40,282 bases of DNA from Nitrosovibrio sp. Nv4 (GTDB lineage: Bacteria > Pseudomonadota > Gammaproteobacteria > Burkholderiales > SG8-39), in assembly GCA_945906765.1 (NCBI GenBank), contig CAMDRF010000018.1, positions 1 through 40,282 on the forward strand, read 5' to 3'. The notes under the pieces were generated by a model, which was not told the DNA's origin, ran no database searches, and saw nothing but the letters and a program-made list of their open reading frames with translations. The translations under genes were made by a program, and so were the position numbers. Of the stretch, positions 26,954 to 40,236 are shown in pieces (position 1 is the stretch's first letter; every line of letters begins with the position of its first letter).

Positions 26954-28081
26954 ACGCTTTGCCACCTCTTCCAGCATGACCTCGGTAGCGCCGCCGCCGA
27001 TGGTCTGCACGCGCGCGTCGCGGTACATGCGCTCGATGGCGGATTCCTTGATGTAGCCGAAACCGCCGTGGAATTGCAGGCAGTCGTAGACCACGTCGTT
27101 CAGCAGTTCCGCGCAGTAAGCCTTGGCCATCGAGACTTCCTTGACGCAGTCGCGGCCCTGCGCGTCGAGCGAAGCGGCATACAGCACGAGCTGGCGCCCG
27201 GCCTCGACCTTCGCGGCGAGCATCGACAGCCGCTGCCGGATCACCTGCTTGTCCCACAGCGGCGCGCCGAAGGCCTTGCGCGTGCACACGTACTCCAGCG
27301 TGAGCTCGATCGCACGCGACGCCTCCCCCATTGCCATGGCGGAGATCGCGATGCGCTCGTTCTGGAAGTTCTTCATGATGGCGTAGAAGCCGCGGTTCTC
27401 CTCGCCCAGCAGGTTGGCGGCGGGCACCCGGCAGTCGTCGAACACCAGCTCGGCGGTGTCGGAGGAGCGCCAGCCCATCTTTTCCAGCTTGCGCCCGACG
27501 GAAAAGCCCCTCATCCCCTTCTCGACAATGAATATCGAAATACCCTTGGAGCCGGCGGCCGGATCGGTTTTGGCGGCAATAAAGTAAAGGTCGGCCAATG
27601 CGCCGTTGGTAATGAACATTTTCGAGCCCTTCAGCACCCAGTCACCGCCATCGCGTCGTGCGCTGGTACGGATCGCCTTCACGTCCGATCCGGCATCCGG
27701 CTCGGTAACGCCGACCGCGGTGATCAGTTCCCCCGACACCACACCCGGCAGGAAACGCTTGATCTGCTCCGGCGACCCCGCGTTCACCAGGTGCGGCGAG
27801 GCCATGTCGGTATGCACGAGTACGGTGATCGCGAAGCCGCCGAAGGTCGAACGGCCGAGCTCCTCGGCCAGCAGCGCGGTTGCGCGCGCATCGAGCGCGC
27901 CGCCGCCGAACTCTTCCGCATAGCGCAGGCCGAGAAATCCCAGTTTCCCCATCTCGCGCAGCACCTCGCGCGGCACGAAGCCCTGCTCTTCCCAGGCATG
28001 CGCCTTCGGCACCACTTCTTTCTCGACAAAGCGGCGGATGGTTTCGCGCAGCAGTTGAAGCGTCTGTTCCGAATCTGTCAT
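26948..28081 (-). CDS. Acyl-CoA dehydrogenase
   Basis: The 377-residue protein (ATG at 28081; a GTG at 28087 is possible) has the FAD and substrate motifs AVGVTEPDAGSDVKAIRT, FITNGALADLYFIAAKT and QFHGGFGYIKESAIERMYRD. The C-terminal motif reads RDARVQTIGGGATEVMLEE: the position held by the catalytic Glu in medium-chain enzymes (YEG) is Gly here. As in isovaleryl-type enzymes, the base is probably the Glu of FQNERIAISAMAMGEA. It would desaturate an acyl-CoA, passing electrons to ETF. The start lies next to the end of the broken PIN gene. Confidence 0.93.
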   Translation of the reverse strand: MTDSEQTLQLLRETIRRFVEKEVVPKAHAWEEQGFVPREVLREMGKLGFLGLRYAEEFGGGALDARATALLAEELGRSTFGGFAITVLVHTDMASPHLVNAGSPEQIKRFLPGVVSGELITAVGVTEPDAGSDVKAIRTSARRDGGDWVLKGSKMFITNGALADLYFIAAKTDPAAGSKGISIFIVEKGMRGFSVGRKLEKMGWRSSDTAELVFDDCRVPAANLLGEENRGFYAIMKNFQNERIAISAMAMGEASRAIELTLEYVCTRKAFGAPLWDKQVIRQRLSMLAAKVEAGRQLVLYAASLDAQGRDCVKEVSMAKAYCAELLNDVVYDCLQFHGGFGYIKESAIERMYRDARVQTIGGGATEVMLEEVAKRL

Positions 28082-28083
28082 GG

Positions 28084-28397
28084 TCACGTAAGTGTACCCA
28101 ATGAATGATCCGGACTGATGAGCGCAAGCTTCGCAAAATAGGTCCGGTAGCGGCGCGTATCTCGCGTCAGCAGCGGAATGCCAGCCACCGCCGCATGGGC
28201 GCCTATGAAGAAATCAGGCAACACCCCGGTCTTCGCGCCGCTCCTGCGGCGATAGTGCAGGAAGGCCTTGCCGGCGAGAAACAGCGCTTCCCGGGGAACC
28301 GGCTCGACGCGGCTTCGAGCTGCTGCTGCGACCAGTGCCGCCACCTCGCATCATCCTTCACGACGTCGAGGATGACGTTGGTGTCGACCAGCAGCAA
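28084..28397 (-). pseudogene. PIN-domain (VapC-like) toxin with internal deletion
   Basis: A TTG at 28397 begins LLVDTNVILDVVKDDARWRH and WSQQQLEAASS, a normal PIN N-terminus with the first catalytic Asp. At 28302-28310 the protein-like sequence passes to another frame: RVEPVPREALFLAGKAFLHY, RRRSGAKTGVLPDFFIGAHA and AVAGIPLLTRDTRRYRTYF, to a TGA at 28084. A stretch of roughly 35-40 residues with the mid-domain Glu is gone. The nine bases GCGTCGAGC at the junction read correctly in both flanking frames (Ala-Ser-Ser, and inside Arg-Val-Glu-Pro), the pattern of deletion between direct repeats. No antitoxin gene is visible upstream, where the MFS gene ends about 50 bp away. Confidence 0.85.
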
Positions 28398-28449: not shown

Positions 28450-29619
28450 CTAGAGGCGCCGCGCCGCCAGCCGGCGCCGGAATTCCAGCGCCAGCAGCGG
28501 CAGCCCCACGGCTGCGACCGCGAATACCGGGCGCGTGCCGACCGCGTCCACCACGTGCGACGCGAGCCACACGCCGGTTGACTGTCCGCTGAACAGGCAC
28601 AACGCGAACAACGCCACCGCGGCGCCGCGCGACTCGGGCGCCATCTGCGTGGCGTGCAACTGGAGCGTGTTGTGCAGCATGTAGAGCCCGGCGCCCAGCG
28701 CCATCAGGCAGGGCACGGCAATGTCCGGCCCCGGCGCCAGTGCGAGACCGAGGTACCCGACCCCGATGCATAGTCCACCCGCAAGCACCAGGCCGCGCTC
28801 GCCAAGGCGCGGCACCAGTCGTCCGGCAACGGCGGCGTAGAGCAGGCCGCCGGCAGCGAATGCCGCGATCAATGCGCCGCTTGCCGCGATGCCCAGTCCC
28901 AGGTAGCGATGCGCGTGGTACGCCGCGAACGCGAGCGGTCCGTAGAGCAGCACGCCTTCGATGAATACCACCGCCAGGATCACGCGTACCCATGGAATCC
29001 GCGTCAGACCGATCATGCGCAGGAACGCCTGTGCAATGGTCTCGCTCGCCTTGGCCGTCTGCCGCGTCACCGGATTGGTCTGCAGTTCGAACCACAGCAA
29101 CGCCGCGCTAACAACGTACAGGCCGGAGAGCGCGATAAAGATCGCGCGCCAGCCGTACAACTCGCCGAGCCACCCGGAGGCCGTGGTGGCAAGCGCGATG
29201 CCGAGCATGCTGCCGATGAGGAAGCGCGCGAGCACCGGCTGGCGCCGCTCGTAGGGCACCACGTCGCCGATCCAGGCGATGGCAAGCGGCACGATCGCGC
29301 CCACCGTGGCGCCGGTGGCGAAACGCGCCGCAACGAGCAGCGGCAGCGTGGGCGCGAACGCGCAGGCGAGATTGCCCACCGCCGAGATCGCCGTGACCCA
29401 GAACACCATGCGGTACTTGCCGATGCGGTCGCTGAGCGGGCCGTTGACGATCTGCAGCACGCCGTAGGCCACTGCAAACGCCGTGATCACCGCGGAGGCG
29501 CCGCCGGCGGAGGTGCCGAAGCTCTCGGCCAGCAAGGGCAGCAGCGGGTCCACCGCGCGCAGCGCCGAGGCGCTCGCAAAAGATGCGAGCGCCAGGACGA
29601 CGACCGCGCGTCCGCTCAT
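28450..29619 (-). CDS. Major facilitator superfamily transporter
   Basis: The 389-residue protein has about twelve hydrophobic helices. The cytoplasmic motif A between helices 2 and 3 appears as NGPLSDRIGKYRMVFW, with the related APE/ERR motifs later (PYERRQPVLARF). It resembles drug or metabolite efflux carriers (YajR/AraJ-type DHA1 group), or it may take up aromatic acids. It follows the acyl-CoA ligase by 16 bp and is the last gene of the pcaHG operon, so transport of the pathway substrate or export of a by-product is plausible (inference). Confidence 0.9.
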   Translation of the reverse strand: MSGRAVVVLALASFASASALRAVDPLLPLLAESFGTSAGGASAVITAFAVAYGVLQIVNGPLSDRIGKYRMVFWVTAISAVGNLACAFAPTLPLLVAARFATGATVGAIVPLAIAWIGDVVPYERRQPVLARFLIGSMLGIALATTASGWLGELYGWRAIFIALSGLYVVSAALLWFELQTNPVTRQTAKASETIAQAFLRMIGLTRIPWVRVILAVVFIEGVLLYGPLAFAAYHAHRYLGLGIAASGALIAAFAAGGLLYAAVAGRLVPRLGERGLVLAGGLCIGVGYLGLALAPGPDIAVPCLMALGAGLYMLHNTLQLHATQMAPESRGAAVALFALCLFSGQSTGVWLASHVVDAVGTRPVFAVAAVGLPLLALEFRRRLAARRL

Positions 29620-29635
29620 CGCGGCGCCAACGACA

Positions 29636-31105
29636 TCAGAGTCCGAACTCCTTCAAAGCATGCTCTCGCAGTTTTGTCTTCTGCACCTTGCCGCTCGCGG
29701 TCATGCCGATCGCTTCGAAGTCGTGGACGATTTTCAGGTAACGCGGAACCCGGAAATTTGCGCAACGTTGCCTGACCCAAGCGATCAGTTGTTCTTGCGT
29801 CGCTTGAAATCCAGAACGTAAAGTCACATAAGCACAACCAACTTCACCCAAGCGTTCGTTCGGAACCCCCACTACCTGCGCGGTTTCCACCGCGGGGTGC
29901 GAGAGCAGCACTTCCTCCACCTCGGCCGGCGCGACGTTTTCGCCGCCGACGCGGAACACGTCCTTCAGGCGCCCTGCCATGCGCAGGCGGCCCTCGACAT
30001 TGAGTTCTCCGAGATCGCCGGTGCGCAGCCAGCCGTCAGCCGTAAACGCCTTGGCCGTGGCGTCGGGGTCGTTGCAATAGCCACGCATGATGCTCCAGCC
30101 CCGGACCTGAATTTCTTTCTCTGCCGAAATTCTTATTTCAATTCCGGGAAGAGGAAGAGCCAGACCCTGAACACGAAGCTCCTCCGGATCGCGCCAGTCG
30201 CTCATCACCACGTTGGGCGAGGCTTCCGACAGGCCGTAGGCGGCGCAGACCGACTTCATGCCGAGCCGGTCGATGATCGCGCGCATGGTCTGGGGCCCCG
30301 CCGCGGCCCAGCCGCCGCGCAGCGAGAGCTTGCGCCGGGGCAAATCCTCGTGGCCCATGAGCATCTGGAAAATGGTGTCGTTGCCCGAGATCAGCGTGCA
30401 GCGTTCGCGCTCGAGCATTTCCAGCGCCGCGCGCGCTTCGAAGGTCGGCAGCGTCACGAGGCAACAGCCGAACAGCAGCGACATCAGCGCCGACAAGGTG
30501 GAGCCGCCGACGTGAAAGAAGGGCCGGCAATTGAAGTAGCGGTCCCCCGGCAGCACGCCGATGCGCGTCCCCGCCGCCCACGCATTGCGCAGCATGCTAT
30601 CGTGCGTGAGCATCACTCCCTTCGGATAGGCGGTGGTGCCGGAAGTAAATTGGATCAGCAACAGATCTCCGGGCTGGACTTTGACCGGCGTGTATTTGCC
30701 CTGCCGCAGCCGAGAAACGTCAATCGCAGTGCTGAAACCAATCTCTCTGATCATCGCCCCGAAATCGATGTTCAGAAAACGATCTACATAAAACAACGCT
30801 TTGGCGCCTGATTTCTTCAGGCCAAAATCGATTTCGTTCGCCTTGAAACGAGTATTGACCGGCACGGTAACCGCGCCGATCAGCGCCGCAGCGTAAAACA
30901 GCGTCAGCCATTGCTCGCCGTTGGGCATCAGGATCGCGACAGGGTCGCCCTTGCCGATGCCGAGCGCCTGCATCGACCCTGCAGTTTCTTTTACTTTCTC
31001 AAAAAGGTTTCCATACGAAATACGAACCGAGGGCGTGACCAGAGCCTCGGCGTCAGGATCCTTCTCAATCAGAAAATTCCCGAGCGTCTTCGGCTGCCAG
31101 CTCAC
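29636..31105 (-). CDS. AMP-forming acyl-CoA synthetase (ANL family)
   Basis: The 489-residue product has the P-loop-like motif LIQFTSGTTAYPKGVMLTHD, the A4-A5 region AAYGLSEASPNVVMSDW, GWLRTGDLGELNVEGRLRMA with the hinge at GRLKDVFRVGGEN, and the catalytic Lys in TASGKVQKTKLRE. It adenylates a carboxylate and makes its CoA thioester. The neighbours (two crotonases, a MarR regulator and a protocatechuate-type dioxygenase) would fit an aromatic or hydroxycinnamate-type acid, but a fatty or dicarboxylic acid is equally possible. The GTG start at 31105 overlaps the upstream stop (GTGA). AT-rich codons appear around 29770-29830, 30120-30170 and 30700-30880. Confidence 0.93.
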   Translation of the reverse strand: MSWQPKTLGNFLIEKDPDAEALVTPSVRISYGNLFEKVKETAGSMQALGIGKGDPVAILMPNGEQWLTLFYAAALIGAVTVPVNTRFKANEIDFGLKKSGAKALFYVDRFLNIDFGAMIREIGFSTAIDVSRLRQGKYTPVKVQPGDLLLIQFTSGTTAYPKGVMLTHDSMLRNAWAAGTRIGVLPGDRYFNCRPFFHVGGSTLSALMSLLFGCCLVTLPTFEARAALEMLERERCTLISGNDTIFQMLMGHEDLPRRKLSLRGGWAAAGPQTMRAIIDRLGMKSVCAAYGLSEASPNVVMSDWRDPEELRVQGLALPLPGIEIRISAEKEIQVRGWSIMRGYCNDPDATAKAFTADGWLRTGDLGELNVEGRLRMAGRLKDVFRVGGENVAPAEVEEVLLSHPAVETAQVVGVPNERLGEVGCAYVTLRSGFQATQEQLIAWVRQRCANFRVPRYLKIVHDFEAIGMTASGKVQKTKLREHALKEFGL

Positions 31106-31824
31106 TTTTTTCCCATCCAGCTGCCGCTGGCGAGCTGCTCGTCGATGGCGGCGATTTCCATCTCCAGCGCGCTTTGGGGGTCGAGTTCCACGCCGCGATC
31201 GATGCAGCGCTTTGCCAGGCGCAACGATTGGGATGGAGCATTGAGGATTTTTTTTCCTATTTCTTCCAAGGTTGACTCCAAGTCAGAAGCACAGACCAAC
31301 CTCGAGACCAAACCTGCTTCCCTCGCCTCCTCCGCGTCAAGGGTCCGGCCGGTGAACAGCATGTCCTTGGCGAGGCGCTTGCCGAGGATGCGCGGCAGGC
31401 GCTGCGTGGCGCCGACGGTGCCGCGCAGCGCCTCCGGCGTGCGGAAGGATGCGTCCGGCGTCGCCACGATGAAATCGCAGGCGCCGGCGATCTCGCAACC
31501 CGAACCGACCACGGCCCCCTCGACCACCGCGACGGCCGGCATCGGCAGGGCTTCGAGTGCCGCGTAGGCGGCGAAGCCCTGCATGCGGCGCTTGCGCACC
31601 TGGGCCTCGCCCATGCCCTGCCGTTCCTTGAGATCGGCCCCGGCGCAGAACACGGGACCGTTGGCACGTATCAGTACAAGCCTTATCTCCTTGTTTGATT
31701 GAATTTCCTTAAAAACAGAAATGAATCGGTCGCACATCTCCAGGTTGAGCGCATTGCGGCTCTGCGGGCGGTTCAGGGTGAGGGTCGCGACGCCTTGCGA
31801 GACTGAATACAGGACCACGCTCAT
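31102..31824 (-). CDS. Enoyl-CoA hydratase/isomerase with both catalytic glutamates
   Basis: The 240-residue protein has the oxyanion motif FCAGADLKERQ, the first catalytic Glu in VVGSGCEIAGACD (Glu111) and the second in FRTPEALRG (Glu131). So it should be a true hydratase, unlike two other crotonases in the window. Start and stop overlap its neighbours: ATGA with the CoA-transferase gene before it and GTGA with the ligase gene after it. The stretches 31240-31310 and 31690-31740 use AT-rich codons (EIGKKILNAPSQS; FISVFKEIQSNKEI). Confidence 0.93.
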   Translation of the reverse strand: MSVVLYSVSQGVATLTLNRPQSRNALNLEMCDRFISVFKEIQSNKEIRLVLIRANGPVFCAGADLKERQGMGEAQVRKRRMQGFAAYAALEALPMPAVAVVEGAVVGSGCEIAGACDFIVATPDASFRTPEALRGTVGATQRLPRILGKRLAKDMLFTGRTLDAEEAREAGLVSRLVCASDLESTLEEIGKKILNAPSQSLRLAKRCIDRGVELDPQSALEMEIAAIDEQLASGSWMGKK

Positions 31825-32996
31825 ATCGCTTTTGCCGCCTTAAGCGCCGCGATTTTTTCTTTCGAATAACCCAACCTATCCGCGAGAACCTTTTCCGTGT
31901 CGCCACCCAGCGTCGGCGGGGCGCCGATCTCCGGGTTGTCCCAGCCGAGGAATTTGTAGGGCAGCGCGAGCGCCTTGAATTCGCCCACGCCGGGGTAATC
32001 GAAGCTGCCCACCAGTCCGCGCGCCCGCACATGCGCGTCCGACAGGATTTCCGCGACGTCGTTGACCGGACCGATGGGGACTTCCACTTCGTCCAGCATC
32101 TGCAGAAGTTTTGCCCGCTCTATTTTTGATACTTCTTCATTCAATTTCAACATCACGATGTCGCGATGCTCAACCCTCAATTCATTGGTTGAAAGATCCG
32201 CGTCGAAATTCAGGTTCAGGACTTTGCACAGCGGTTGCCAGTGCTGGTCGCTGGCGGTGATGTGGGCGAACTTGCCGTCCTTGCAGCGGAACGTGGCAGA
32301 AGGAACGCGGCCCGGATGTTGCGTACCCAGGCGCGGGGCAATTTCGCCCAGCGCGAAGTAACGAGCCGCAGCCAGGGTGAGAAGCGATACCTGGCCGTCC
32401 AGCATGGAGAAATCGAGGTGCGCGCCGTGGCCCGTCTTTTCCCTTCCGGACAGCATGGCGAGGATTCCGATCGCCACCCACAGGCCCGAAGTGAGATCGG
32501 CAATCGGCAATCCCGGCTTGACCGGCCCGCCGCCCTTCTCGCCGGTGAGGCTCATCAGGCCGCCCATCGCCTGGAATACGCTGTCGTAGCCCTTCTTGTG
32601 CGCGTAGGGCCCGGTCTGGCCGAATCCGGTGCAGGAAACGTAGACCAGCCTCGGGTTGAGCGCCGAGAGCATGGCGAAGTCCAGGCCGTGGCGGCCCAGC
32701 GTGCCGGCCGGAAAATTTTCCACCACCACATCCACCTTCTGCGCCAGTTCCCGGATGATGTTCTGTCCTTCCGGTTGGCGCAGGTTGACGGTGATCGATG
32801 CCTTGGAGCGGTTGCAGGCGAAGTAGTAGGCGCTGTCCTGCGCGAGCTGTGGTTCGAAAGCGCGTGTTTCGTCGCCGGCGCCGGGTTGCTCGACCTTGAT
32901 CACGGTGGCGCCGAGCTCGGCGAGGATCATGCTCGCGAACGGACAGGCAAGCACACGCGAAAGATCGAGGATCGTGAGATGTTGCAGTGGCTTCAT
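31821..32996 (-). CDS. CaiB/BaiF family (class III) CoA-transferase
   Basis: The 391-residue product begins LTILDLSRVLACPFASMILA with ELGATVIKVEQPGAGDETR and the catalytic Asp167 in PGLPIADLTSGLWVAIG. It is a second family III CoA-transferase besides the one at 16.5-17.6 kb and lies in another operon, between a DMT exporter and a hydratase, overlapping both by four bases (ATGA). With the ligase of the same operon there are two ways to make a CoA thioester, perhaps for different intermediates. Codons at 32100-32210 are AT-rich (ELRVEHRDIVMLKLNEEVSK). Confidence 0.93.
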   Translation of the reverse strand: MKPLQHLTILDLSRVLACPFASMILAELGATVIKVEQPGAGDETRAFEPQLAQDSAYYFACNRSKASITVNLRQPEGQNIIRELAQKVDVVVENFPAGTLGRHGLDFAMLSALNPRLVYVSCTGFGQTGPYAHKKGYDSVFQAMGGLMSLTGEKGGGPVKPGLPIADLTSGLWVAIGILAMLSGREKTGHGAHLDFSMLDGQVSLLTLAAARYFALGEIAPRLGTQHPGRVPSATFRCKDGKFAHITASDQHWQPLCKVLNLNFDADLSTNELRVEHRDIVMLKLNEEVSKIERAKLLQMLDEVEVPIGPVNDVAEILSDAHVRARGLVGSFDYPGVGEFKALALPYKFLGWDNPEIGAPPTLGGDTEKVLADRLGYSKEKIAALKAAKAI

Positions 32997-33949
32997 CTAA
33001 AAGCCAGCAGGGCAATGCCGGAGAGCACCATCAAGGCGCCCAGCAGCGTGCGCGGAGTCAGCGCTTCGCGGTTTTTCAGGATCAAAACGCTTACCGGGAA
33101 GATCACCAGCGGCGTGGTGTGGACCACCAGCACCGCGAGCGCGATTTCCATGCGATTCATCGCCAGCGCGACGAATATCGAACCGAACGCGGTGGTCACG
33201 CCGCAGCCCACGTACAGCCACACCGCAATGCGCTCGGCGCCGCGCAACTGCGCCGCGATCTTTCCCCAGCCGCGCGTCGCCACCACCTGGCAGGCAAGCG
33301 CGGCCAGCGAAGACACCACCGTGCCGAGAATCGCCTCGTCCCAGCCGCGCATGGCAAGGCCGCGCAACACGTTGCCGATGCCGAAGCCCGCAACCGTGAG
33401 CAGGCCGGCGAGCATTCCCTTGCGCACGTTCGCCGGCACGTTCGCCGGCACGTTCGCCGGCACGTTCGCCGGCACGTTCGCCGGCGAGAGCGGGATGGCG
33501 CCCGTGGAAGGGCCGCGCATCGAACCTGCACGCGGCTGCGTGAACCACAGCCCGAACCAGACGACCGCCATCAGACCGATCTCGTAGAACCCGAGCCGCT
33601 CGTCGGCCAGCAGCCACGCGCCCACCAACGCAAACGCCGGGGCCGTCGAGTGGAACACGCTGGCACGCGAGGGGCCGAGCATGCGCACCGCATCGAACAG
33701 CATGCGGCGCCCGAGGAACGTGCCGATCACGCCGCCGATCGCGAACAACCCCGCTCCTTTCCAGTCCCAGGCCCAGGGCGCGGCGCGCGCCGCCAGCTCG
33801 AACGGGAACAGGATCGCCGGCAACAGGATATTGGTCGCCAGTACGATGAAAAAACCGGCCTCCACGGGCAGCCGCGTCACGGCGTAGCGCGTGATCAGGA
33901 TGTTGGCGGAAAAGCACAGCATCGCGGCAAGTGCGAACGTGACGCCCAT
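32993..33949 (-). CDS. EamA/DMT-superfamily membrane transporter with a PANV repeat
   Basis: The 318-residue product has about ten membrane helices in two EamA halves: MGVTFALAAMLCFSANILIT to LWFTQ, and GMLAGLLTVAGFGIGNVLRG to the end. The halves are joined by a hydrophilic linker with five copies of PANV (see repeat at 33425-33484). DMT carriers export metabolites or amino acids. The start at 33949 is 7 bp after the crotonase stop; its TGA overlaps the CoA-transferase ATG. It is co-directional and nearly overlapping in the pcaHG operon, where it could export a pathway intermediate. Confidence 0.9.
   Translation of the reverse strand: MGVTFALAAMLCFSANILITRYAVTRLPVEAGFFIVLATNILLPAILFPFELAARAAPWAWDWKGAGLFAIGGVIGTFLGRRMLFDAVRMLGPSRASVFHSTAPAFALVGAWLLADERLGFYEIGLMAVVWFGLWFTQPRAGSMRGPSTGAIPLSPANVPANVPANVPANVPANVRKGMLAGLLTVAGFGIGNVLRGLAMRGWDEAILGTVVSSLAALACQVVATRGWGKIAAQLRGAERIAVWLYVGCGVTTAFGSIFVALAMNRMEIALAVLVVHTTPLVIFPVSVLILKNREALTPRTLLGALMVLSGIALLAFR
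33425..33484 (-). repeat. Coding 12-bp tandem repeat, five copies (PANV)
   Basis: CACGTTCGCCGG is repeated five times without a mismatch. On the coding strand each unit gives Pro-Ala-Asn-Val. The tract lies in the linker between the two halves of the DMT transporter. Unit length is a multiple of three, so copy-number change would keep the frame. Confidence 0.97.
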
Positions 33950-33955
33950 GCATGC

Positions 33956-34690
33956 CTACGCCTTGCGGAACGCGCGCATGCGTTTGTTCGTTTCGCGCCC
34001 GCGCTTGAGCGCCTCTTCCAGCGGCAGGTCGGCCACTTCATGGAAAAGTTGTTTGGTAGCTTTCATTGCTGGAGAACTTATCGCCGTGAGCTTTTCTGCA
34101 AGCAACATCGTTTGCGACATGAGATCCGCATCCGGCACGACTCGATTGACCAGCCCGAACGAAAGCGCTTGCTGTGAAGTCAAGGCCTCCCCTAGCGAAA
34201 CCAGTTCAAAAGCGTGCTTGCGACCCACCTGCCGCACCAGGTTCGCCATGACGAGCGCGGCGACGATGCCGTGGCGCGTTTCCGGATAACCGATCGTCGC
34301 GCTTGCCGCCATGACCGCAAGGTCGCCGGCGATCGCGAGGCCGGCGCCGCCGCCCATCGCCGCGCCGTTGATCGCCGTCACCACCGGCTTCGCCATTTTC
34401 GCAAACGCGAGGTGCAGCTGCATGCTGAGTTCGGCGCGCTCGTCCACGCGCTGCGGAAACTCGGGAGTCAGGTCCTTGAACTCCGAGAGGTCCGCGCCGG
34501 CGCAGAAGCCCTTGCCGGCGCCCGCCAGCACTACCGCCGCGACCGAGTCCGAGGCGTCCGCTGCGCGCAGTCCATCGAGCAGCGCCTGCGTCAGCGCCGT
34601 ATTCAGCGCATTGCGCTTCTCCGGCCGGTTCATGGTCAGGATGCGCACCGCGCCGCGGTCTTGCGTGAGCAGGATGTCCGGCGTCGTCAT
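33956..34690 (-). CDS. Enoyl-CoA hydratase/isomerase family protein
   Basis: The 244-residue product from the ATG at 34690 has the crotonase motifs FCAGADLSEFKDL and AAMGGGAGLAIAGDLA. The first catalytic Glu is replaced (Gly117 in GGGAGL) while the second is kept (Glu137 in IGYPETRHGI). Many such one-Glu members are isomerases or lyases. Its ATG overlaps the MarR stop (ATGA). A longer frame upstream is the MarR gene in another frame. Codons near 34055-34200 are AT-rich (ISSPAMKATKQLFHEV). Confidence 0.92.
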   Translation of the reverse strand: MTTPDILLTQDRGAVRILTMNRPEKRNALNTALTQALLDGLRAADASDSVAAVVLAGAGKGFCAGADLSEFKDLTPEFPQRVDERAELSMQLHLAFAKMAKPVVTAINGAAMGGGAGLAIAGDLAVMAASATIGYPETRHGIVAALVMANLVRQVGRKHAFELVSLGEALTSQQALSFGLVNRVVPDADLMSQTMLLAEKLTAISSPAMKATKQLFHEVADLPLEEALKRGRETNKRMRAFRKA

Positions 34691-35160
34691 CGCGCCTGCT
34701 GCTCCTTCTGGATCAAGCTGCGCGCCTCGCGCGCGAGCTTGGTCATCGCCTTCTCCAGGCATGCGCGCTCCTGCGCGCTCAGGCAGCCGAGGAACGCGTT
34801 ATTGCGCTCTGCGGCGGCGCTGATCAGCTTCCGGTAAAGCTTTTCTCCGGCGCGGGTGAGGGAAAGCCGGATGCCGCGCGCGTCGTTGGCGTCCGTTTCC
34901 CGGGAGACTATTTTCTTCCGCGTCAGACCGGACACCACGCGGCTCATCTGCCCCTTGTCCATGCCCGCGGCACGCGCAAGCTCATTGAGCGATTGCGGCT
35001 CGCCCGCGCCGCCGAGCAGCGCCACCGTGCGCCATTCCCACAGGCTGACGCCGAATTCGCGCCGGTAGCGCATCTCCGCGCCGCGCGACAGCAGGTTCGC
35101 AACCTGGTGCAGGCGGTACGACAGCAACTCGCGGATGGTCGGGGATGTACGCTGCAGCAT
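34687..35160 (-). CDS. MarR-family transcriptional regulator
   Basis: The 157-residue protein has an N-terminal dimerisation helix (IRELLSYRLHQVANLLSRGA), a winged helix-turn-helix (LNELARAAGMDKGQMSRVVS, recognition helix GQMSRVVSGLTRKKIV) and the wing motif DARGIRLSLTRAGEKLYRKL with the conserved DxR. MarR proteins usually repress their own operon and are released by an aromatic acid or its CoA thioester (as for HcaR- or CouR-type regulators). Here it lies inside the operon and is coupled to pcaG (TGATG) and to the crotonase (ATGA). The inverted repeat at 36403-36436 is the likely operator, not proven. Confidence 0.93.
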   Translation of the reverse strand: MLQRTSPTIRELLSYRLHQVANLLSRGAEMRYRREFGVSLWEWRTVALLGGAGEPQSLNELARAAGMDKGQMSRVVSGLTRKKIVSRETDANDARGIRLSLTRAGEKLYRKLISAAAERNNAFLGCLSAQERACLEKAMTKLAREARSLIQKEQQAR

Positions 35161-35702
35161 CAGTCGCCGAAGAACGGAGTTTCGTTCTCGCCGCGCAAGC
35201 GGATGTCGAAGCGATAACTGCCCGGCCCCTGCTTCTTAGCCATCAGAAGTTCACGGCGTGAAGCGGGCACAGCCAAAAGAACGACATCCATTCCATGTTC
35301 AAAATACAGGGTCGTTTTCAGGATTCGCATCAACCCCGAAAACATGAGCATGAAATTGATATGCGGCGCGCGGCCTTCGGGCGCACCGGGCATGATCGTG
35401 CGGAACACGTAGCCACCCTTGTCGTCCGTGGCCGCGCGCCCCCAGCCGAGGAAATCCGGGTCGGCCCGCGCATGGCGCGGGTCGGCGGGATGGCGGAAGA
35501 TGCCGTCCGCATCGGGCTGCCAGATCTCGACGATCAGGTTCTCGAGCGCGGCGCCATCCTCCTGGACGACCCGGCCGCGGATCCAGATCGCCTCGCCTTT
35601 CGCTTTCCGACCGTCGAACATGGTCAGGTCGTTCGCTCCCTGATCCACATAGCGCGGGGGAAAGAAAGGCCCGATCGTGGCTTCTCCTGTCGGAATCATC
35701 AT
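35160..35702 (-). CDS. pcaG: Protocatechuate 3,4-dioxygenase alpha-subunit-like protein
   Basis: The 180-residue product carries intradiol-dioxygenase motifs: TIGPFFPPRYVDQGAND, LIVEIWQPDADGIFRHPADP, RTIMPGAPEGRAPHINFMLM and the C-terminal RFDIRLRGENETPFFGD typical of PcaG. In this family the alpha subunit holds no iron; it shapes the pocket of the beta subunit. It is shorter than usual (about 200 residues), mainly around TLYFEHGMDVVLLAVP, where codons are also AT-rich (35240-35300). Start and stop overlap pcaH and marR, so subunits are made together. Substrate may be protocatechuate or a related catechol. Confidence 0.88.
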   Translation of the reverse strand: MMIPTGEATIGPFFPPRYVDQGANDLTMFDGRKAKGEAIWIRGRVVQEDGAALENLIVEIWQPDADGIFRHPADPRHARADPDFLGWGRAATDDKGGYVFRTIMPGAPEGRAPHINFMLMFSGLMRILKTTLYFEHGMDVVLLAVPASRRELLMAKKQGPGSYRFDIRLRGENETPFFGD

Positions 35703-36397
35703 GGCTGCACTGGTGTTGCCGCACGACCACGCAGCACGATCTGGTGCTCGAACACCAGCGCGTCGTGGGGATCGCCGGTGGGCGGGAGGTAGCGTGCGAC
35801 CAGGGATTCACGTGCCGCCGTGTCCGGCACCGCGTTGAGGATCCGGTCCTGCCCGTTGAGCGGTTCGCCGGGAAAATACATCTGCGTCACCAGGCGCGAC
35901 AGCCACACCTTGCCGAACAGGGAGAAGTGAACGTGCGGCGGGCGCCACCAACCGTCGCGCGTCGGCACCGGGTAGGCGCCGGGCTTCACGGTGCGCAATT
36001 CGCACCTGCCGCTCTCATCGGTCACCAGACGCGCCGCGCCGTAGAAATTCGGGTCGGGCGGCGCGTGGTCGTCGTCGTTCGGGTGGAGGTAGCGCCCCGC
36101 CGCGTTCGCCTGCCACATCTCGACCAGCGTGCCGCCCACCGGCGCACCGTCTTCGTCCAGCACGCGCACCTTAAGATGGATCAGCTGACCGATGGCCTGC
36201 TTGTCGCCGTGGCCGGCGATGTCGCCGCCGAGAAGCTTGACGCGCCGCGCCGCCTCCAGCGGGCCGCTGAGTTCGGAAAGCGTCGGACTGCGCTTCACCA
36301 GCGGCTGCCTCGGATTGCGCAGCGGCGTCTGCGGGTAGCCGGCGACGATGCGCGCCGGCTGGGTGCGCTCGTCGCGCGGCTGGATGATGGTCGGCAT
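35699..36397 (-). CDS. pcaH: Protocatechuate 3,4-dioxygenase beta-subunit-like protein
   Basis: The 232-residue product from the ATG at 36397 has all four iron ligands of the intradiol enzymes: Tyr103 in AAGRYLHPNDD, Tyr142 in KPGAYPVPTRDGWW, and His155 and His157 in RPPHVHFSLFG. The N-terminal PLVKRSPTLSELSGP and C-terminal HDALVFEHQIVLRG also fit PcaH. It cleaves a catechol between its hydroxyl groups using Fe(III) and O2. Alternative starts at 36412 (ATG) and 36436 (TTG) would run into the inverted repeat. No pcaB, pcaC or pcaD gene is close, so the route after ring opening must differ or be encoded elsewhere. Confidence 0.9.
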   Translation of the reverse strand: MPTIIQPRDERTQPARIVAGYPQTPLRNPRQPLVKRSPTLSELSGPLEAARRVKLLGGDIAGHGDKQAIGQLIHLKVRVLDEDGAPVGGTLVEMWQANAAGRYLHPNDDDHAPPDPNFYGAARLVTDESGRCELRTVKPGAYPVPTRDGWWRPPHVHFSLFGKVWLSRLVTQMYFPGEPLNGQDRILNAVPDTAARESLVARYLPPTGDPHDALVFEHQIVLRGRAATPVQP

Positions 36398-36402
36398 GGG
36401 AA

Positions 36403-36436
36403 TTGACAGCATCGCGCAGTTGGTTGATGCTGTCAA
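36403..36436. promoter_or_regulatory. Probable operator: perfect 11-bp inverted repeat between divergent operons
   Basis: TTGACAGCATC (36403-36413) and GATGCTGTCAA (36426-36436) are perfect inverted repeats with a 12-bp spacer, filling most of the 41 bp between the starts of pcaH (minus) and the HMG-CoA-lyase-like gene (plus). Each arm starts with TTGACA, a perfect -35 hexamer on its strand, but no good -10 lies 17 bp further. The MarR protein of the minus operon is the obvious candidate to bind it. Confidence 0.65.
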
Positions 36437-36438
36437 CT

Positions 36439-37368
36439 ATGTACCAGGAAGTTACACCGGGTGTTACTTTATGCGAATGCTTCGCCCGCGACGGGCTGCA
36501 GCATGAACCGGGATTCATTCCCACGGAGATCAAACGCGCGCTGGTCGAGCGCTTCGCCGCTATCGGCTTCCCTCGCGTGGAAGCGACTTCCTACTCGAAT
36601 CCCAAGGTCGTTCCCCAGTTTTCGGACGCCAGTGATCTGCTCAGGTCCTTGTCTCGTTTTTCAGGTGTTTTTTACAAGGCCACCTGCGCGAATCCCAGGG
36701 CGGTACAACGCGCCATTTCGGATCTGGATGCGGGCCACGGCGTAAACGAGATCAGCCTGCTCGTTTCCGCCACCGAGGCGCACACGCAGAAGAACCTGAA
36801 GCGCACCCGGGCCGAGCAGTGGGCCAACATCGCGGAAATGGTAAGCGTGGCAAATGGCAGGTTCCGGTTGGTCGGCACCGTGTCGGTCGCCTTCGGTTGT
36901 CCTTTCGAGGGCGAGGTGAATCCAGAAAGTGTTTTCGAGGATGCTTGTCGTTTTTCCGAATTGGGCGTTCAACACGTGGCGATCGGCGACACCGCCGGCA
37001 TGGCGACGCCCTTGTCCATCAAAGGGCTTTTCAATCGTCTAAAAGCGCAAAAGAACCTCGTCCCGATCGCCCACTTTCACGACTCCCGCGGCACCGGACT
37101 CGTGAACTGCGTCGCGGCCTACGAGGCGGGCGTGCGCCACTTCGATTCCGCCTTCGGCGGGGCCGGCGGGCACCCGGCGAAGGTGAAGTACGGCGGCGGC
37201 TTTACCGGCAACGTCTGTACCGAGGACCTGGTCGGCCTGTTCGAATCCATGGGCATCGCCACCGGGATAGACTTGGACCGGCTGCTTGCGACCGCGGAAT
37301 TCTGCGAGCAGGCGCTTGGCCGTGAGCTGCACGGCCGTGTCACCAGAAGCGGATTGAATCCAGTTTAA
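36439..37368 (+). CDS. HMG-CoA-lyase-like (HMGL domain) aldolase family protein
   Basis: The 309-residue product from the ATG at 36439 opens with ECFARDGLQHEPGF; Arg17 and Asp18 match the catalytic Arg and Asp of HMG-CoA lyases (RDGLQ). The metal-binding HxH is in PIAHFHDSRGTGLVNC. The last loop, GGAGGHPAKVKYGGG with TGNVCTEDLVGLF, corresponds to the GLGGCPYA region of HMG-CoA lyase, but the catalytic Cys is absent (His in the following position). So the cleaved acyl-CoA may not be HMG-CoA. Its stop overlaps the next ATG (TAATG). A TTG at 36403 would extend the protein through the inverted repeat. Confidence 0.87.
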   Translation: MYQEVTPGVTLCECFARDGLQHEPGFIPTEIKRALVERFAAIGFPRVEATSYSNPKVVPQFSDASDLLRSLSRFSGVFYKATCANPRAVQRAISDLDAGHGVNEISLLVSATEAHTQKNLKRTRAEQWANIAEMVSVANGRFRLVGTVSVAFGCPFEGEVNPESVFEDACRFSELGVQHVAIGDTAGMATPLSIKGLFNRLKAQKNLVPIAHFHDSRGTGLVNCVAAYEAGVRHFDSAFGGAGGHPAKVKYGGGFTGNVCTEDLVGLFESMGIATGIDLDRLLATAEFCEQALGRELHGRVTRSGLNPV

Positions 37369-38453
37369 TGAAACCGCCATTTCGTGCCGACCAGGTCGGC
37401 AGCCTTCTCCGTCCGAAGGAACTTTCTGAAGCGAGAAGGAAGTTCAAGGAAGGGAAGCTCGAGGCAACAGCCCTGAAGGAAATCGAAGACCGATCGATCC
37501 GGGAAGCGATCCGGAAACAGGAGTCGGTCGGCCTCGAGTCCATCACCGACGGGGAGTTCCGCCGCGACTGGTGGCACCTGGATTTCATGGCGCAGCTGGA
37601 CGGCGTGACGTCGGTGGCCAATCCGGGGCCGAAATTCGGCGGCACCGGGGAGCAGCCGCCAATCCCGTCGGTCACGGGAAAAGTGGCTTGCTCGAAGCCC
37701 ATCATGGTCAATGACTTCAACTATTTAAAACAAAATACAGGACAAACGGCGAAATTCACCATGCCCTCGCCCGCGATGCTGCACCTGCGCGGCGGCCGCA
37801 GCTCGATCTCGAAGGAGGTGTACCCGGATCTGGACGCGTTCTGGGTCGATACGTCCGCGGCCTGGGCCAGGGCGATCCGGCACCTCGCGGACGCGGGCTG
37901 CACCTACCTGCAACTGGATGATGTGAGTTTTTCGTACCTGTGCGATCCAAAAATCCAGGATACCTGCCGCAACAACGGCGACGATCCGGCGCAACTGCCG
38001 CGCACCTATGCCGATGCGGTCACCAATGCGCTCAAGAACCGCCCCGCCGGCATGACAGTGACGATGCACACCTGCCGCGGCAACTTCAAGAGCAGCTGGG
38101 TTGCCTCGGGCGGCTACGAATCGGTCGCCGAAGCGATGTTCTCCTCCGACGTGGACGCTTTCTTCCTGGAGTTCGACTCCGAGCGTGCCGGCGGCTTCGA
38201 GCCGCTGCGCCACCTGCCCAAGGGCAAGAAGGTGGTACTGGGCCTGGTCACCTCGAAATCTCCCGCACTTGAAGACAAGGAATTCATCAAGAAAAAAATC
38301 AACGAAGCCAGCAAGTACGTGCCACTGGAGAACCTCTGCCTGTCGCCGCAATGCGGCTTCTCCAGCACCCACCACGGCAACAGCCTGACCGCAGACGAGC
38401 AGTGGCGCAAACTCGAGCGCATCGTCGAAATCGCGCGGGAAGTCTGGCGCTGA
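37368..38453 (+). CDS. MetE-like (cobalamin-independent methionine synthase C-terminal domain) protein
   Basis: The 361-residue protein resembles YxjG/YxjH-type MetE paralogues. It starts PPFRADQVGSLLRPKELSEA and has ESITDGEFRRDWWHLDFMA. The zinc site appears as MHTCRGN (His234, Cys236), FFLEFDSERAGGF (Glu) and LSPQCGFSSTHHGN (Cys). These motifs would bind a thiol acceptor. Related enzymes transfer methyl groups from folate or methylcobalamin-type donors; the role in a catabolic cluster is unknown, perhaps removal of a methyl group. AT-rich codons interrupt at 37722-37752 (NDFNYLKQNTGQ). Confidence 0.88.
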   Translation: MKPPFRADQVGSLLRPKELSEARRKFKEGKLEATALKEIEDRSIREAIRKQESVGLESITDGEFRRDWWHLDFMAQLDGVTSVANPGPKFGGTGEQPPIPSVTGKVACSKPIMVNDFNYLKQNTGQTAKFTMPSPAMLHLRGGRSSISKEVYPDLDAFWVDTSAAWARAIRHLADAGCTYLQLDDVSFSYLCDPKIQDTCRNNGDDPAQLPRTYADAVTNALKNRPAGMTVTMHTCRGNFKSSWVASGGYESVAEAMFSSDVDAFFLEFDSERAGGFEPLRHLPKGKKVVLGLVTSKSPALEDKEFIKKKINEASKYVPLENLCLSPQCGFSSTHHGNSLTADEQWRKLERIVEIAREVWR

Positions 38454-38459
38454 ACTGAG

Positions 38460-39056
38460 ATGGCCGCCCCGGTCTCCATCGCACACACCCACGTGCATTC
38501 GCTGCGCCTCGCCTCGGGCGCGGAGGCGCTCGTCGCGCGGGTACTCGCGGCCGATGGCACCGCGGGATTCGGCTTCACCCTGAACCTGGATGCCGGCGTC
38601 GCCCGCGACATGGCCGCCTGGGACGCGCTCGCGCGAGCCAGGGAGGTTCCTCTATATGGCCTTCTTGGAGGTTCTTACAGAAAAGAAATAACAACAGTCA
38701 AAGATGAACTTCCCGCAATTGCCCCTGACTGGACGGCGCTGCGAAAAGACATCCTCGACGCTCGCCACGAGCTGCTGCGCATCGACCCCTTCGCCTGGGG
38801 TTCGGTGGAGATGGTGCAGACCATCGCCGCCGTCGCCCACGCTTTCGACCTGAGCATCGCCCTGCTCGCGCCGAACGCGCATCCCTGGGAGCTGCAGTAT
38901 TGCGCCGCACTGGCAGCAACGCTAAAAGGAGAGGACACGAGAATTGTTATGCGTTCTGTTCCTGCTTTTTCTTCAATTTCTGTATCTGAACAACAAGGAC
39001 TGGGAATTGACTGGTCGGTCGAACCCTCCTTCAGCAATATCAAGTGGCAAAGCTAG
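38460..39056 (+). CDS. Short enolase-superfamily-like protein without the catalytic barrel residues
   Basis: The 198-residue protein reads EALVARVLAADGTAGFGFTL and DMAAWDALARAREVPLYGLL, the N-terminal elements of muconate-lactonising or mandelate-racemase-type enzymes, then LRIDPFAWGSVEMVQTIAAV and AHAFDLSIALLAPNAHPWEL like the last strands of the barrel. The middle of the barrel, with KxK and the Asp/Glu/Glu metal ligands, is not present, and the capping domain also looks shortened. It may be a natural non-catalytic partner of the next gene or a shrunken enzyme, as seen in other genes of this window. It starts 6 bp after the MetE-like gene. 38651-38705 and 38933-39060 are AT-rich. Confidence 0.7.
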   Translation: MAAPVSIAHTHVHSLRLASGAEALVARVLAADGTAGFGFTLNLDAGVARDMAAWDALARAREVPLYGLLGGSYRKEITTVKDELPAIAPDWTALRKDILDARHELLRIDPFAWGSVEMVQTIAAVAHAFDLSIALLAPNAHPWELQYCAALAATLKGEDTRIVMRSVPAFSSISVSEQQGLGIDWSVEPSFSNIKWQS

Positions 39057-39066
39057 AGATTCGTCA

Positions 39067-40236
39067 ATGACAACGCTGAGCGTTGTAGCGATACGCCTGA
39101 CGCGCGTATCGATCCCGCTCACCCTGGTGCACGCGGGCTCGATGTACGTGATTCAGAAGACCGAGCGCACCGTGGTCGAGCTGGTGCTCGAGAACGGCGT
39201 CATCGGCCTGGGCGAGACCTGGGGTACGCCGGACGTCTACGCCCTCGCCCGGCGCTTCGCCAGGGATTGGCTTGGCAGGGACGCGCTCGACCGCTTCGCC
39301 TTGCGCGACGTGCTCGGCAAATCCAGCTACGACAACCGTTTCGGCCGCAATGGGCTGGCGACCCTGGCTGGCCTGGACCTCGCCGCCTGGGATGCGGTCG
39401 CCCGCTCGCTGAAGCTGTCGCTCGCCGAGCTGATCGGCGCAAGAAAGCGCGAATCGATCGACGTTGTCTCCACGCTGCCCGCCGCCATCCTGCCGCAAGC
39501 CGTCTCGCGCAAGGAACTGACCGGCCACCTGGATGTGCTCGCGAACACGAAACTCGTCGTCGAATTCGCGCTGCAACAGGTGCGCAAATCCGGCTTCCGC
39601 TCCTTCAAGCTCAAAAGCGCCGCGTACTCGCCCGAATGGGACTGGAAACTGCTCAACGAATTGCGCGAAGCGATGCCCAAGGCGCGTATCCGCTTCGATC
39701 CCAACGCCAACTACGGCGCGGCAACCGCCACCGAACTTTGCCGGCGCCTCGATCCGCTCGGGCTGGAGTTCTTCGAGGACCCGACCGGCGAGCTCGAAGG
39801 CATCGCGCGCCTGAAAGCAGCAGTGAAAACACCGGTCGCCACCAACATGTGGATAGTGAAGGACGAGCACCTCGTCCCCGCGATCCGGCGCAAGGCCGTG
39901 GACGTGGTGCTCGGGGACCTGTTCATGTGGGGCGGCATCGGCCCCTGGCGCCGCATGGCGCGCGTCGCGCACGCCTACGGACTGAAACCCGCGCTGCACA
40001 GCGTCTACGAAACCGGCATCGCCACCGTGGCCAACCTGCACCTCGCCTCGGCGCTCTCGGAGATCGAACATCCCAACGACTCGGGCCTGCACTTCCTTTC
40101 CTCCGACGTCCTTGCCGAGCCTCAGGAAGTAAAAGGCGGAGCAATGCGTTTGCCTTCCGGTCCGGGGCTGGGCGTATCGCTCGACCGGGCAAAGCTTGAA
40201 AAGATGACACTGGAATCCACGGAAATTCGTCCCTGA
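39067..40236 (+). CDS. Enolase-superfamily dehydratase, glucarate-dehydratase-like
   Basis: The 389-residue protein begins VVAIRLTRVSIPLTLVHAGS and has the complete set of superfamily motifs: FRSFKLKSAAYSPE (KxK base), RIRFDPNANYGAATA and LEFFEDPTGELEG (metal ligands), PVATNMWIVKDEH (Asn as in glucarate dehydratase) and KPALHSVYETGIATVANLHL, where His is the second base. The DPN and ATNM motifs point to the glucarate dehydratase subgroup, acting on sugar diacids or similar 2-hydroxy acids. It ends the divergent operon; 10 bp separate it from the short enolase-like gene. Confidence 0.9.
   Translation: MTTLSVVAIRLTRVSIPLTLVHAGSMYVIQKTERTVVELVLENGVIGLGETWGTPDVYALARRFARDWLGRDALDRFALRDVLGKSSYDNRFGRNGLATLAGLDLAAWDAVARSLKLSLAELIGARKRESIDVVSTLPAAILPQAVSRKELTGHLDVLANTKLVVEFALQQVRKSGFRSFKLKSAAYSPEWDWKLLNELREAMPKARIRFDPNANYGAATATELCRRLDPLGLEFFEDPTGELEGIARLKAAVKTPVATNMWIVKDEHLVPAIRRKAVDVVLGDLFMWGGIGPWRRMARVAHAYGLKPALHSVYETGIATVANLHLASALSEIEHPNDSGLHFLSSDVLAEPQEVKGGAMRLPSGPGLGVSLDRAKLEKMTLESTEIRP

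Follow-up and report, generated by a model that had tools for sequence, protein, structure and literature searches.

Which substrate would a protocatechuate 3,4-dioxygenase-like enzyme open when its genes lie among those for coenzyme A (CoA)-thioester enzymes? The question is raised by a contig of Nitrosovibrio sp. Nv4 (GCA_945906765.1, contig CAMDRF010000018.1, positions 1–40,282), which we analysed whole and call the window; its 40,282 bases are one entire contig of an assembly of 3.1 Mb in 149 contigs. Two divergent units, at 28450–36397 on the minus strand and 36439–40236 on the plus strand, bring PcaH- and PcaG-like subunits together with a MarR-family regulator, two crotonases, a CaiB-type CoA-transferase, an acyl-CoA ligase and an enzyme that resembles 3-hydroxy-3-methylglutaryl-CoA (HMG-CoA) lyase. 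Neighbouring minus-strand genes either overlap, by 1 or 4 bp, or have at most 16 bp between them, an operon-like spacing, and Pfam places all the families of this unit, two carriers included, where a first-pass annotation of the DNA had described them as tightly packed. Here we describe the gene content and order of the cluster, its conservation, the separate PcaHG clade that it encodes with that clade's residue changes, and an intergenic repeat; from these we infer its substrate, every reaction and its regulation. Our reading, which is tentative and somewhat short of probable, is that the cluster is inducible and serves the breakdown of a catechol other than protocatechuate, with a CoA-thioester route after intradiol cleavage.

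A PcaHG clade without the usual arginine

PcaH (35699–36397, minus strand; the start codon is our choice, and an alternative upstream ATG at 36412 is possible) and PcaG (35160–35702, minus strand) are homologous tandem subunits, each with a Pfam Dioxygenase_C domain. PcaG scored 135.9 bits against TIGR02423, above the NCBIfam alpha-subunit cut-off of 126.25, and PcaH scored 232.5 bits against TIGR02422, below the beta-subunit cut-off of 296.4, so the pair did not pass the equivalog test for both subunits. In our alignment the beta-subunit Fe(III) ligands Tyr108, Tyr147, His160 and His162 are unchanged, as is Arg157. The active-site pocket of PcaHG sits between the two chains, and we take alpha-Arg133 and beta-Trp149 (presumably Trp449 in common numbering) to be positions near the substrate.

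Both positions are altered in PcaHG genes that are linked to the CoA-enzyme module described below (for comparison rows, linkage was assessed within about 1.5 kb). In a 56-row alignment of PcaG, position 133 is serine in the window and in every module-linked row (27 of 27, from 23 distinct loci). It is arginine in 27 of the 29 non-module rows and proline in the remaining two (L149 and L164); among aligned structures it is histidine in the PDB set 2bux–2bv0 and arginine in 1eo2. D'Argenio and colleagues reportedly found in 1999 that the single substitution of histidine at this PcaG position gave the Acinetobacter PcaHG activity on catechol. Given this activity, the loss of Arg133 argues for a substrate without a ring carboxylate. 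The first-pass annotation had suggested a protocatechuate-type acid as the substrate of PcaHG, a proposal that the uniform replacement of the ordinary arginine by serine speaks against.

The beta-subunit position is less telling. In an alignment of 81 PcaH rows, residue 149 is valine in the window and valine, tyrosine, alanine or threonine in all 28 module-linked rows, with tryptophan in none (0/28). Of the 53 other rows, 28 have tryptophan there; counting only the 33 rows best matched by an ordinary PcaH query, the number is again 28. The 25 other rows that lack Trp149 comprise three catechol-type dioxygenases of module loci, five sequences best matched by ordinary PcaH (L145, L146, L155, L156 and L166) and 17 that are not; recruitment was mostly through a PcaG search outside the order. 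Loss of Trp149 is by itself no marker of the clade. Both residue alignments omit rows shorter than 120 amino acids, L008–L013 (the same places as L037–L043), L139, L167 and L168, the last being a second place in genome G488 and not a duplicate.

In a tree of loci with both subunits, the module-linked PcaH sequences form one clade, 23 of 50 rows, with support of 100/100. The tree omits L050, L053, L062 and L091 (on the contigs of L037, L038, L039 and L043), as well as L148, L149 and L164, and it is to be read with its long branches in mind: the reference sequence (REF) and L141, both outside the clade, have long end branches, and where most of the clade joins the remaining rows, long branches meet. 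A related PcaHG on a plasmid of Paracoccus marcusii reads, by eye, isoleucine at position 133 and shares the YPV and WWRPPH signature; its neighbours encode a thiolase, a hydroxyacyl-CoA dehydrogenase, a 2-dehydropantoate-reductase-like protein and a CaiB, again the company of CoA-thioester enzymes.

Ordinary pca genes elsewhere in the genome

As the first-pass annotation had noted, pcaB, C, D, I, J and F are not among the window proteins that we scanned. A canonical pcaHG pair with Arg133 lies on contig C69 (L044), and further contigs carry two pcaD genes above cut-off, a pcaB-like gene at 353.4 bits (just below the cut-off of 355.75), a pcaF-like thiolase at 547.8 bits (below the cut-off of 597) and two IJ-like CoA_trans gene pairs; no pcaC search was made. 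These families match below cut-off in many control genomes too, and only the pcaD assignments pass a curated pca cut-off. There are, then, pca genes elsewhere in the genome, which the first-pass annotation had named, together with a lack of co-transcription, as counting against its proposal. Judging from these genes, the cell is probably able to run the normal protocatechuate pathway. Since an ordinary pcaHG and further pca candidates lie elsewhere, the cluster need not replace them and would do something else.

The same genes bear on a reading in which the cluster holds an ordinary second protocatechuate 3,4-dioxygenase set and its neighbours form a coincidental operon. PcaG does exceed the NCBIfam alpha-subunit cut-off and the Fe ligands are kept, but PcaH falls below the beta-subunit cut-off, Arg133 and Trp149 are both lost, an ordinary pcaHG is already present on C69 and the linkage to the CoA-enzyme genes is conserved. 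We regard this reading as very improbable.

The cluster contains a conserved CoA module

The first-pass annotation had made its proposal depend on the neighbourhood recurring in other genomes, and it does recur, both within the genus and beyond it. PcaH was found in 11 of 13 same-genus genomes (7 of the 7 good ones), and the same 11 carry the lyase. In all 11 the two genes are adjacent and divergent on one contig; the distance is about 300 bp or less in nine genomes, and about 2 kb in G666 and G671. The linkage is more than chance. Ratios of nonsynonymous to synonymous substitution rates (dN/dS) were 0.10–0.18 for seven cluster genes compared with L037, and at most about 0.26 compared with four other loci. 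In an order sample of 300 genomes the lyase was present in 7; in a class sample of 369 genomes, in which the rows listed lie nearly all outside the order, it was found in the Nitrosovibrio genome itself only.

To describe the wider distribution, we scanned named genomes by CaiB alignment and analysed the best 80 of 225 loci. Relatives were present in 75 of these for crotonase 1, 69 each for crotonase 2 and the ligase, 62 for the lyase, 57 for an NMO-like flavoprotein and 52 for MarR, and in 24 loci PcaH and/or PcaG was encoded no more than 10 kb from CaiB; these counts are lower bounds, with many loci ending at contig ends. Among the 49 CaiB loci of at least 20 kb, 42 have both crotonases, the ligase and the lyase together, and 10 have PcaHG. 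The wider core is therefore MarR, two crotonases, CaiB, ligase, lyase and usually the NMO-like flavoprotein, and it occurs in Beta- and Alphaproteobacteria, with Pandoraea, Caballeronia, Burkholderia, Achromobacter, Pigmentiphaga, Cupriavidus and Rhodoplanes among the named holders. On plasmids of Bosea, Shinella, Gemmobacter and a Paracoccaceae bacterium, the genes for lyase, crotonase, CaiB, crotonase and ligase are consecutive. A core CoA module exists, with one PcaHG line beside it.

On the Bosea and Shinella plasmids (L126 and L127), the module adjoins genes for ABC transport, an aminotransferase, a histone-deacetylase-like protein and succinate-semialdehyde dehydrogenase, neighbours hinting at a quite different module substrate.

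Active-site residues of the CoA enzymes

The residues that CoA transfer, hydration and retro-Claisen cleavage would require are conserved, except for the lyase cysteine. (The residue counts below omit the four duplicates L050, L053, L062 and L091; the 80-locus counts include them.) Crotonase 1 (ECH1; 31102–31824, minus strand), with E111 and E131 in the window, has both catalytic glutamates in 69 of 69 rows, and its PDB relatives include enoyl-CoA hydratases and the methylglutaconyl-CoA hydratase 1hzd. CaiB (31821–32996, minus strand; Pfam CoA_transf_3) retains Asp167 in 76 of 76 rows and has a succinate–hydroxymethylglutarate CoA-transferase as its best PDB match, which would make it a sensible partner for an HMG-CoA-lyase-type enzyme. 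In the lyase (36439–37368, plus strand; Pfam HMGL-like), the metal-binding and catalytic residues Arg, Asp, Glu, His, His and Asn, whose roles we take to be those in human HMG-CoA lyase, are kept in 56 of 56 rows. All 56 also have histidine (His245 in the window) at the usual catalytic cysteine, within a longer glycine loop, GGxGGHP versus GGCP in 6nds, and the window protein scored 238.4 bits against NF004283, below the NCBIfam cut-off of 246. Together, crotonase 1, CaiB and the lyase resemble the enzymes of the last steps of leucine breakdown, in which a 3-branched diacid becomes a CoA ester, is hydrated to a tertiary alcohol and is then cleaved.

Crotonase 2 (ECH2; 33956–34690, minus strand) has glycine at the first catalytic glutamate in 56 of 58 rows and retains the second in 55 of 58. 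Because the first glutamate is glycine, it is more likely to be an isomerase or similar enzyme than a hydratase, and the missing residue also weakens a ferulate-type hydratase/lyase reading. The AMP-binding acyl-CoA ligase (ACS; 29636–31105, minus strand) is nearest to a FadD3-type NCBIfam model and lies under its cut-off.

A rival reading, which takes up the second model of the first-pass annotation, places the steps in another order: the ligase, crotonases and lyase would shorten a phenylpropenoid-like acid by acetyl-CoA before the variant PcaHG opens the catechol so formed, and the lyase would act ahead of ring cleavage. Crotonase 1 is a competent hydratase by its residues, and many loci hold the CoA module without PcaHG; in some of them, genes for an aldehyde dehydrogenase, a GMC oxidoreductase or a thioesterase lie close by. 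However, a shortened hydroxycinnamate is a benzoate that carries a carboxylate, yet this PcaHG lacks alpha-Arg133; moreover, Pfam finds no aldehyde dehydrogenase among the window operon genes, and CaiB is nearest to dicarboxylate CoA-transferases. Side-chain shortening ahead of the dioxygenase thus seems quite unlikely.

A candidate operator between the two units

Between the divergent start codons lies a perfect 11-bp inverted repeat, TTGACAGCATC-N12-GATGCTGTCAA, at 36403–36436, in a candidate shared promoter region. Among the ten loci compared, exact 11-bp arms occur in the window, L037, L045 and L048, arms of 8–9 bp in L046, L047 and L054, and related half-sites with different spacing in L039 and L049; in L038, where the intergenic gap is about 260 bp, the repeat finder reported none. 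Because a MarR gene (34687–35160, minus strand) lies within the operon, the repeat is probably the operator of that regulator. On each strand of the window, TTGACA and GATGCT occur here at a distance of 17 bp, and the pairs lie 7 and 10 bases ahead of the two start codons. That they would fit promoters placed back to back, with almost leaderless transcripts, is only an idea.

A possible route and the evidence against it

In the route that we favour, the variant PcaHG would open, by a cut between the hydroxyls, a catechol that bears at position 4 something other than a free ring carboxylate, for example an alkyl group or a neutral side chain of greater length. The product would be a 3-substituted muconate. 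The CaiB transferase, the ligase or both would convert this muconate, or the product of the enolase-superfamily protein ENOb described below, to a CoA thioester. Crotonase 1 would then add water to form a 3-hydroxy-3-substituted acyl-CoA, crotonase 2 would isomerise or otherwise prepare the second double bond, and the HMG-CoA-lyase-like enzyme would release acetyl-CoA and leave a keto acid. MarR would repress both divergent units at the inverted repeat until released by the substrate or an intermediate. The heart of this explanation is that a 4-substituted catechol cut between its hydroxyls would be a 3-branched diacid, which fits a module of the kind found at the end of leucine breakdown. The first-pass annotation had proposed ring cleavage, an enolase-type step, CoA activation, hydration and retro-aldol cleavage; we keep that scheme, for which the coherent, conserved cluster and the competent residues speak, and drop the protocatechuate-type substrate of its second model.

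In its most general form, the proposal would be a third intradiol logic next to the catechol and protocatechuate branches, in which a PcaHG clade without the carboxylate-binding arginine opens 4-substituted catechols. The 3-substituted muconates, otherwise a dead end, would become CoA esters, take up water at the branched carbon and be cleaved by a new, His-type member of the HMG-CoA lyase family, so that lactone and 3-oxoadipate chemistry is bypassed. We offer this extension as speculative and on the unlikely side.

Several observations weigh against the favoured route. Beta-Arg157 and Tyr24 are retained, which would leave room for some carboxylate binding. Given histidine for cysteine and the longer glycine loop, the lyase may catalyse a reaction different from that of HMG-CoA lyase, and a ligase and a transferase together exceed the needs of one activation. 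The NMO-like flavoprotein has no match in the window, and a sigma-70 promoter scan found none at the repeat. PcaHG loci without a lyase in the stretch examined also exist (L040, L042, L051, L052, L057, L061, L063 and L064, several at contig ends), and searches of the whole genomes G103 (L040) and G137 (L042) at E 1e-70 found no lyase. Finally, 56 of the 80 CaiB loci show no PcaHG in the stretch examined; the 18 kb examined of L075, from the soil bacterium Caballeronia glathei DSM 50014, a carrier of the module, likewise show none. Because most module loci are of this kind, other substrates are served by the module as well, and its chemistry does not have to come after ring cleavage.

The last two points would suit an arrangement of separate pathways, in which the module would handle 3-branched, methylglutaconate-like acids in general and the PcaHG, MetE-like and enolase genes share only the MarR regulon with it. 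The nearness of CaiB to succinate–hydroxymethylglutarate CoA-transferase, and the relatedness of crotonase 1 to methylglutaconyl-CoA hydratase, among others, are in keeping with such a division. It is at odds with the packing of the window genes from PcaH through the ligase, which overlap by 1 or 4 bp with a single 6-bp gap, with a linkage that no genus member with both PcaH and lyase has lost, and with the fact that the linked PcaHG form one clade with its own active-site changes. On balance we think separate pathways unlikely.

Companion genes of the cluster

The first-pass annotation had placed the lyase, a MetE-like and two enolase-superfamily genes in the divergent unit, and Pfam finds the HMGL-like, Meth_synt_2 and MR_MLE families there; the first enolase-type protein, ENOa (38460–39056, plus strand), is however a shortened form of 198 amino acids. 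The MetE-like protein (37368–38453, plus strand; core Meth_synt_2) passes the NF005085 cut-off and has the Zn ligands His, Cys, Glu and Cys in 7 of 7 rows. A relative occurs in 12 of the 80 CaiB loci, outside the wide core, so this gene is no argument for the methylated substrate that the first-pass annotation thought it would suit. In G211 the corresponding gene (L038, 16779–17370) lacks internal stretches, leaving residues 43–177 and 213–226 of the window protein unmatched.

ENOa lacks much of the barrel, yet it is conserved in relatives and under purifying selection (dN 0.10 and dS 0.58 compared with L037). Its structure model has a mean predicted local distance difference test (pLDDT) score of 70.7, with the first 42 residues poor, and matches enolase-superfamily structures first, at modest TM-scores of about 0.5–0.6. 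It is perhaps a non-catalytic partner of the full-length MR/MLE protein ENOb (39067–40236, plus strand; Pfam MR_MLE). ENOb scored 110.2 bits against the muconate cycloisomerase model TIGR02534, whose cut-off is 334.95, and its nearest PDB entry is 2oqh, a putative isomerase; for its counterpart in G175 the nearest is 3dg3, a muconate cycloisomerase. At L042 and L043, which come from two genomes in the order, the genes clustered with PcaHG include those for a class II aldolase, a TauD-type dioxygenase, a ketopantoate-reductase-like protein and a muconate-cycloisomerase-like enolase; families were scanned in L043, and L042 was judged from look-alike sequence starts and alignment.

A catechol/hydroxyquinol-type dioxygenase (Dioxygenase_N plus Dioxygenase_C) is encoded in L037 (8892–9728), L040 (17476–18384) and L056 (246–1118), with matches also in L039 and L049. 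Its gene lies past the enolase genes or next to the MetE-like one, which it overlaps in G103. Downstream of the ligase in L055, L057, L059 and L060 is an iron-type alcohol dehydrogenase, family-scanned in the L059 copy, that looks like maleylacetate reductase. Found near several loci, genes of these two kinds may point to a trihydroxybenzene branch.

An EamA/DMT carrier (32993–33949, minus strand) and an MFS carrier (28450–29619, minus strand; MFS_1, 5.7e-48) complete the minus-strand unit. Beyond it, an acyl-CoA dehydrogenase gene (26948–28087, minus strand) probably belongs to the cluster as a distal member, and counterparts with 84–88% identity stand 3' of the MFS gene in L045, L046, L047, L053 and L056. 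The contig ends 46 bases past the last plus-strand gene, so the plus-strand unit may continue beyond it. Elsewhere in the window are a DDE_5-type transposase gene (23963–25345) with a low coding score for the host genome, 3 kb from the cluster, and a Rieske gene (838–1950) more than 25 kb away.

Relation to known systems

The cluster shares with PcaHG of the beta-ketoadipate pathway two tandem Dioxygenase_C subunits and Tyr/Tyr/His/His Fe(III) ligands, but differs in alpha-Ser133, beta-Val149 and its separate clade, and in having a ligase, CaiB, crotonases and a lyase as neighbours in place of pcaBCDIJF. Relatives of methylglutaconyl-CoA hydratase (AUH), HMG-CoA lyase and succinate–HMG CoA-transferase (SUGCT), which act in the end steps of leucine and isoprenoid breakdown, are all present, and the proposed chemistry would be the same, hydration of a 3-branched enoyl-CoA followed by retro-Claisen cleavage. 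Unlike those steps, the cluster has a ring-cleavage enzyme attached and a lyase whose glycine loop is longer and carries histidine for cysteine, and Pfam finds no biotin carboxylase among the unit genes. The methylmuconolactone (mml) route for methylcatechols combines lactone isomerisation with 3-oxoadipate-type steps. It too handles substituted muconates after intradiol cleavage, whereas the cluster would use a CoA route; we set the two apart by description only.

The MarR gene and the aromatic genes also suggested the iad auxin-degradation locus, likewise a MarR-controlled aromatic catabolic cluster of Betaproteobacteria. We rejected this candidate: by Pfam, the cluster lacks the families of the markers given in two papers, iadA/B (ferredoxin oxidoreductase) and iadC/D/E (a Rieske system) (PMC9613470, PMC10374108). 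For modules without PcaHG, one idea by analogy is an abscisic-acid route, in which the same hydration and retro-Claisen chemistry would lead to dehydrovomifoliol. An HMGL–CaiB pair responds to Mimosa root exudate in Burkholderia phymatum and Cupriavidus taiwanensis (PMC5789663); its HMGL may be another paralogue.

In the open-licence literature, searches on the gene set, on methylmuconolactone with CoA or with ortho cleavage, on Arg133 and on PcaHG specificity turned up no title or abstract that describes this set; the first-pass annotation knew of no described pathway with exactly these genes. The cluster is real, conserved and under selection, and as a set it is apparently undescribed, built from known families.

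Genes annotated as PcaHG are routinely read as protocatechuate degradation. If the clade uses other catechols, that annotation would be wrong for a group recognisable by alpha-Ser133 and, mostly, a beta-subunit WWRPPH with YPV or YPY. On the same condition, the environmental turnover of methyl- or alkyl-catechols may include an unrecognised CoA route. The His-for-Cys lyase subfamily, which recurs at dozens of loci among the same CoA enzymes, is a new enzyme open to testing.

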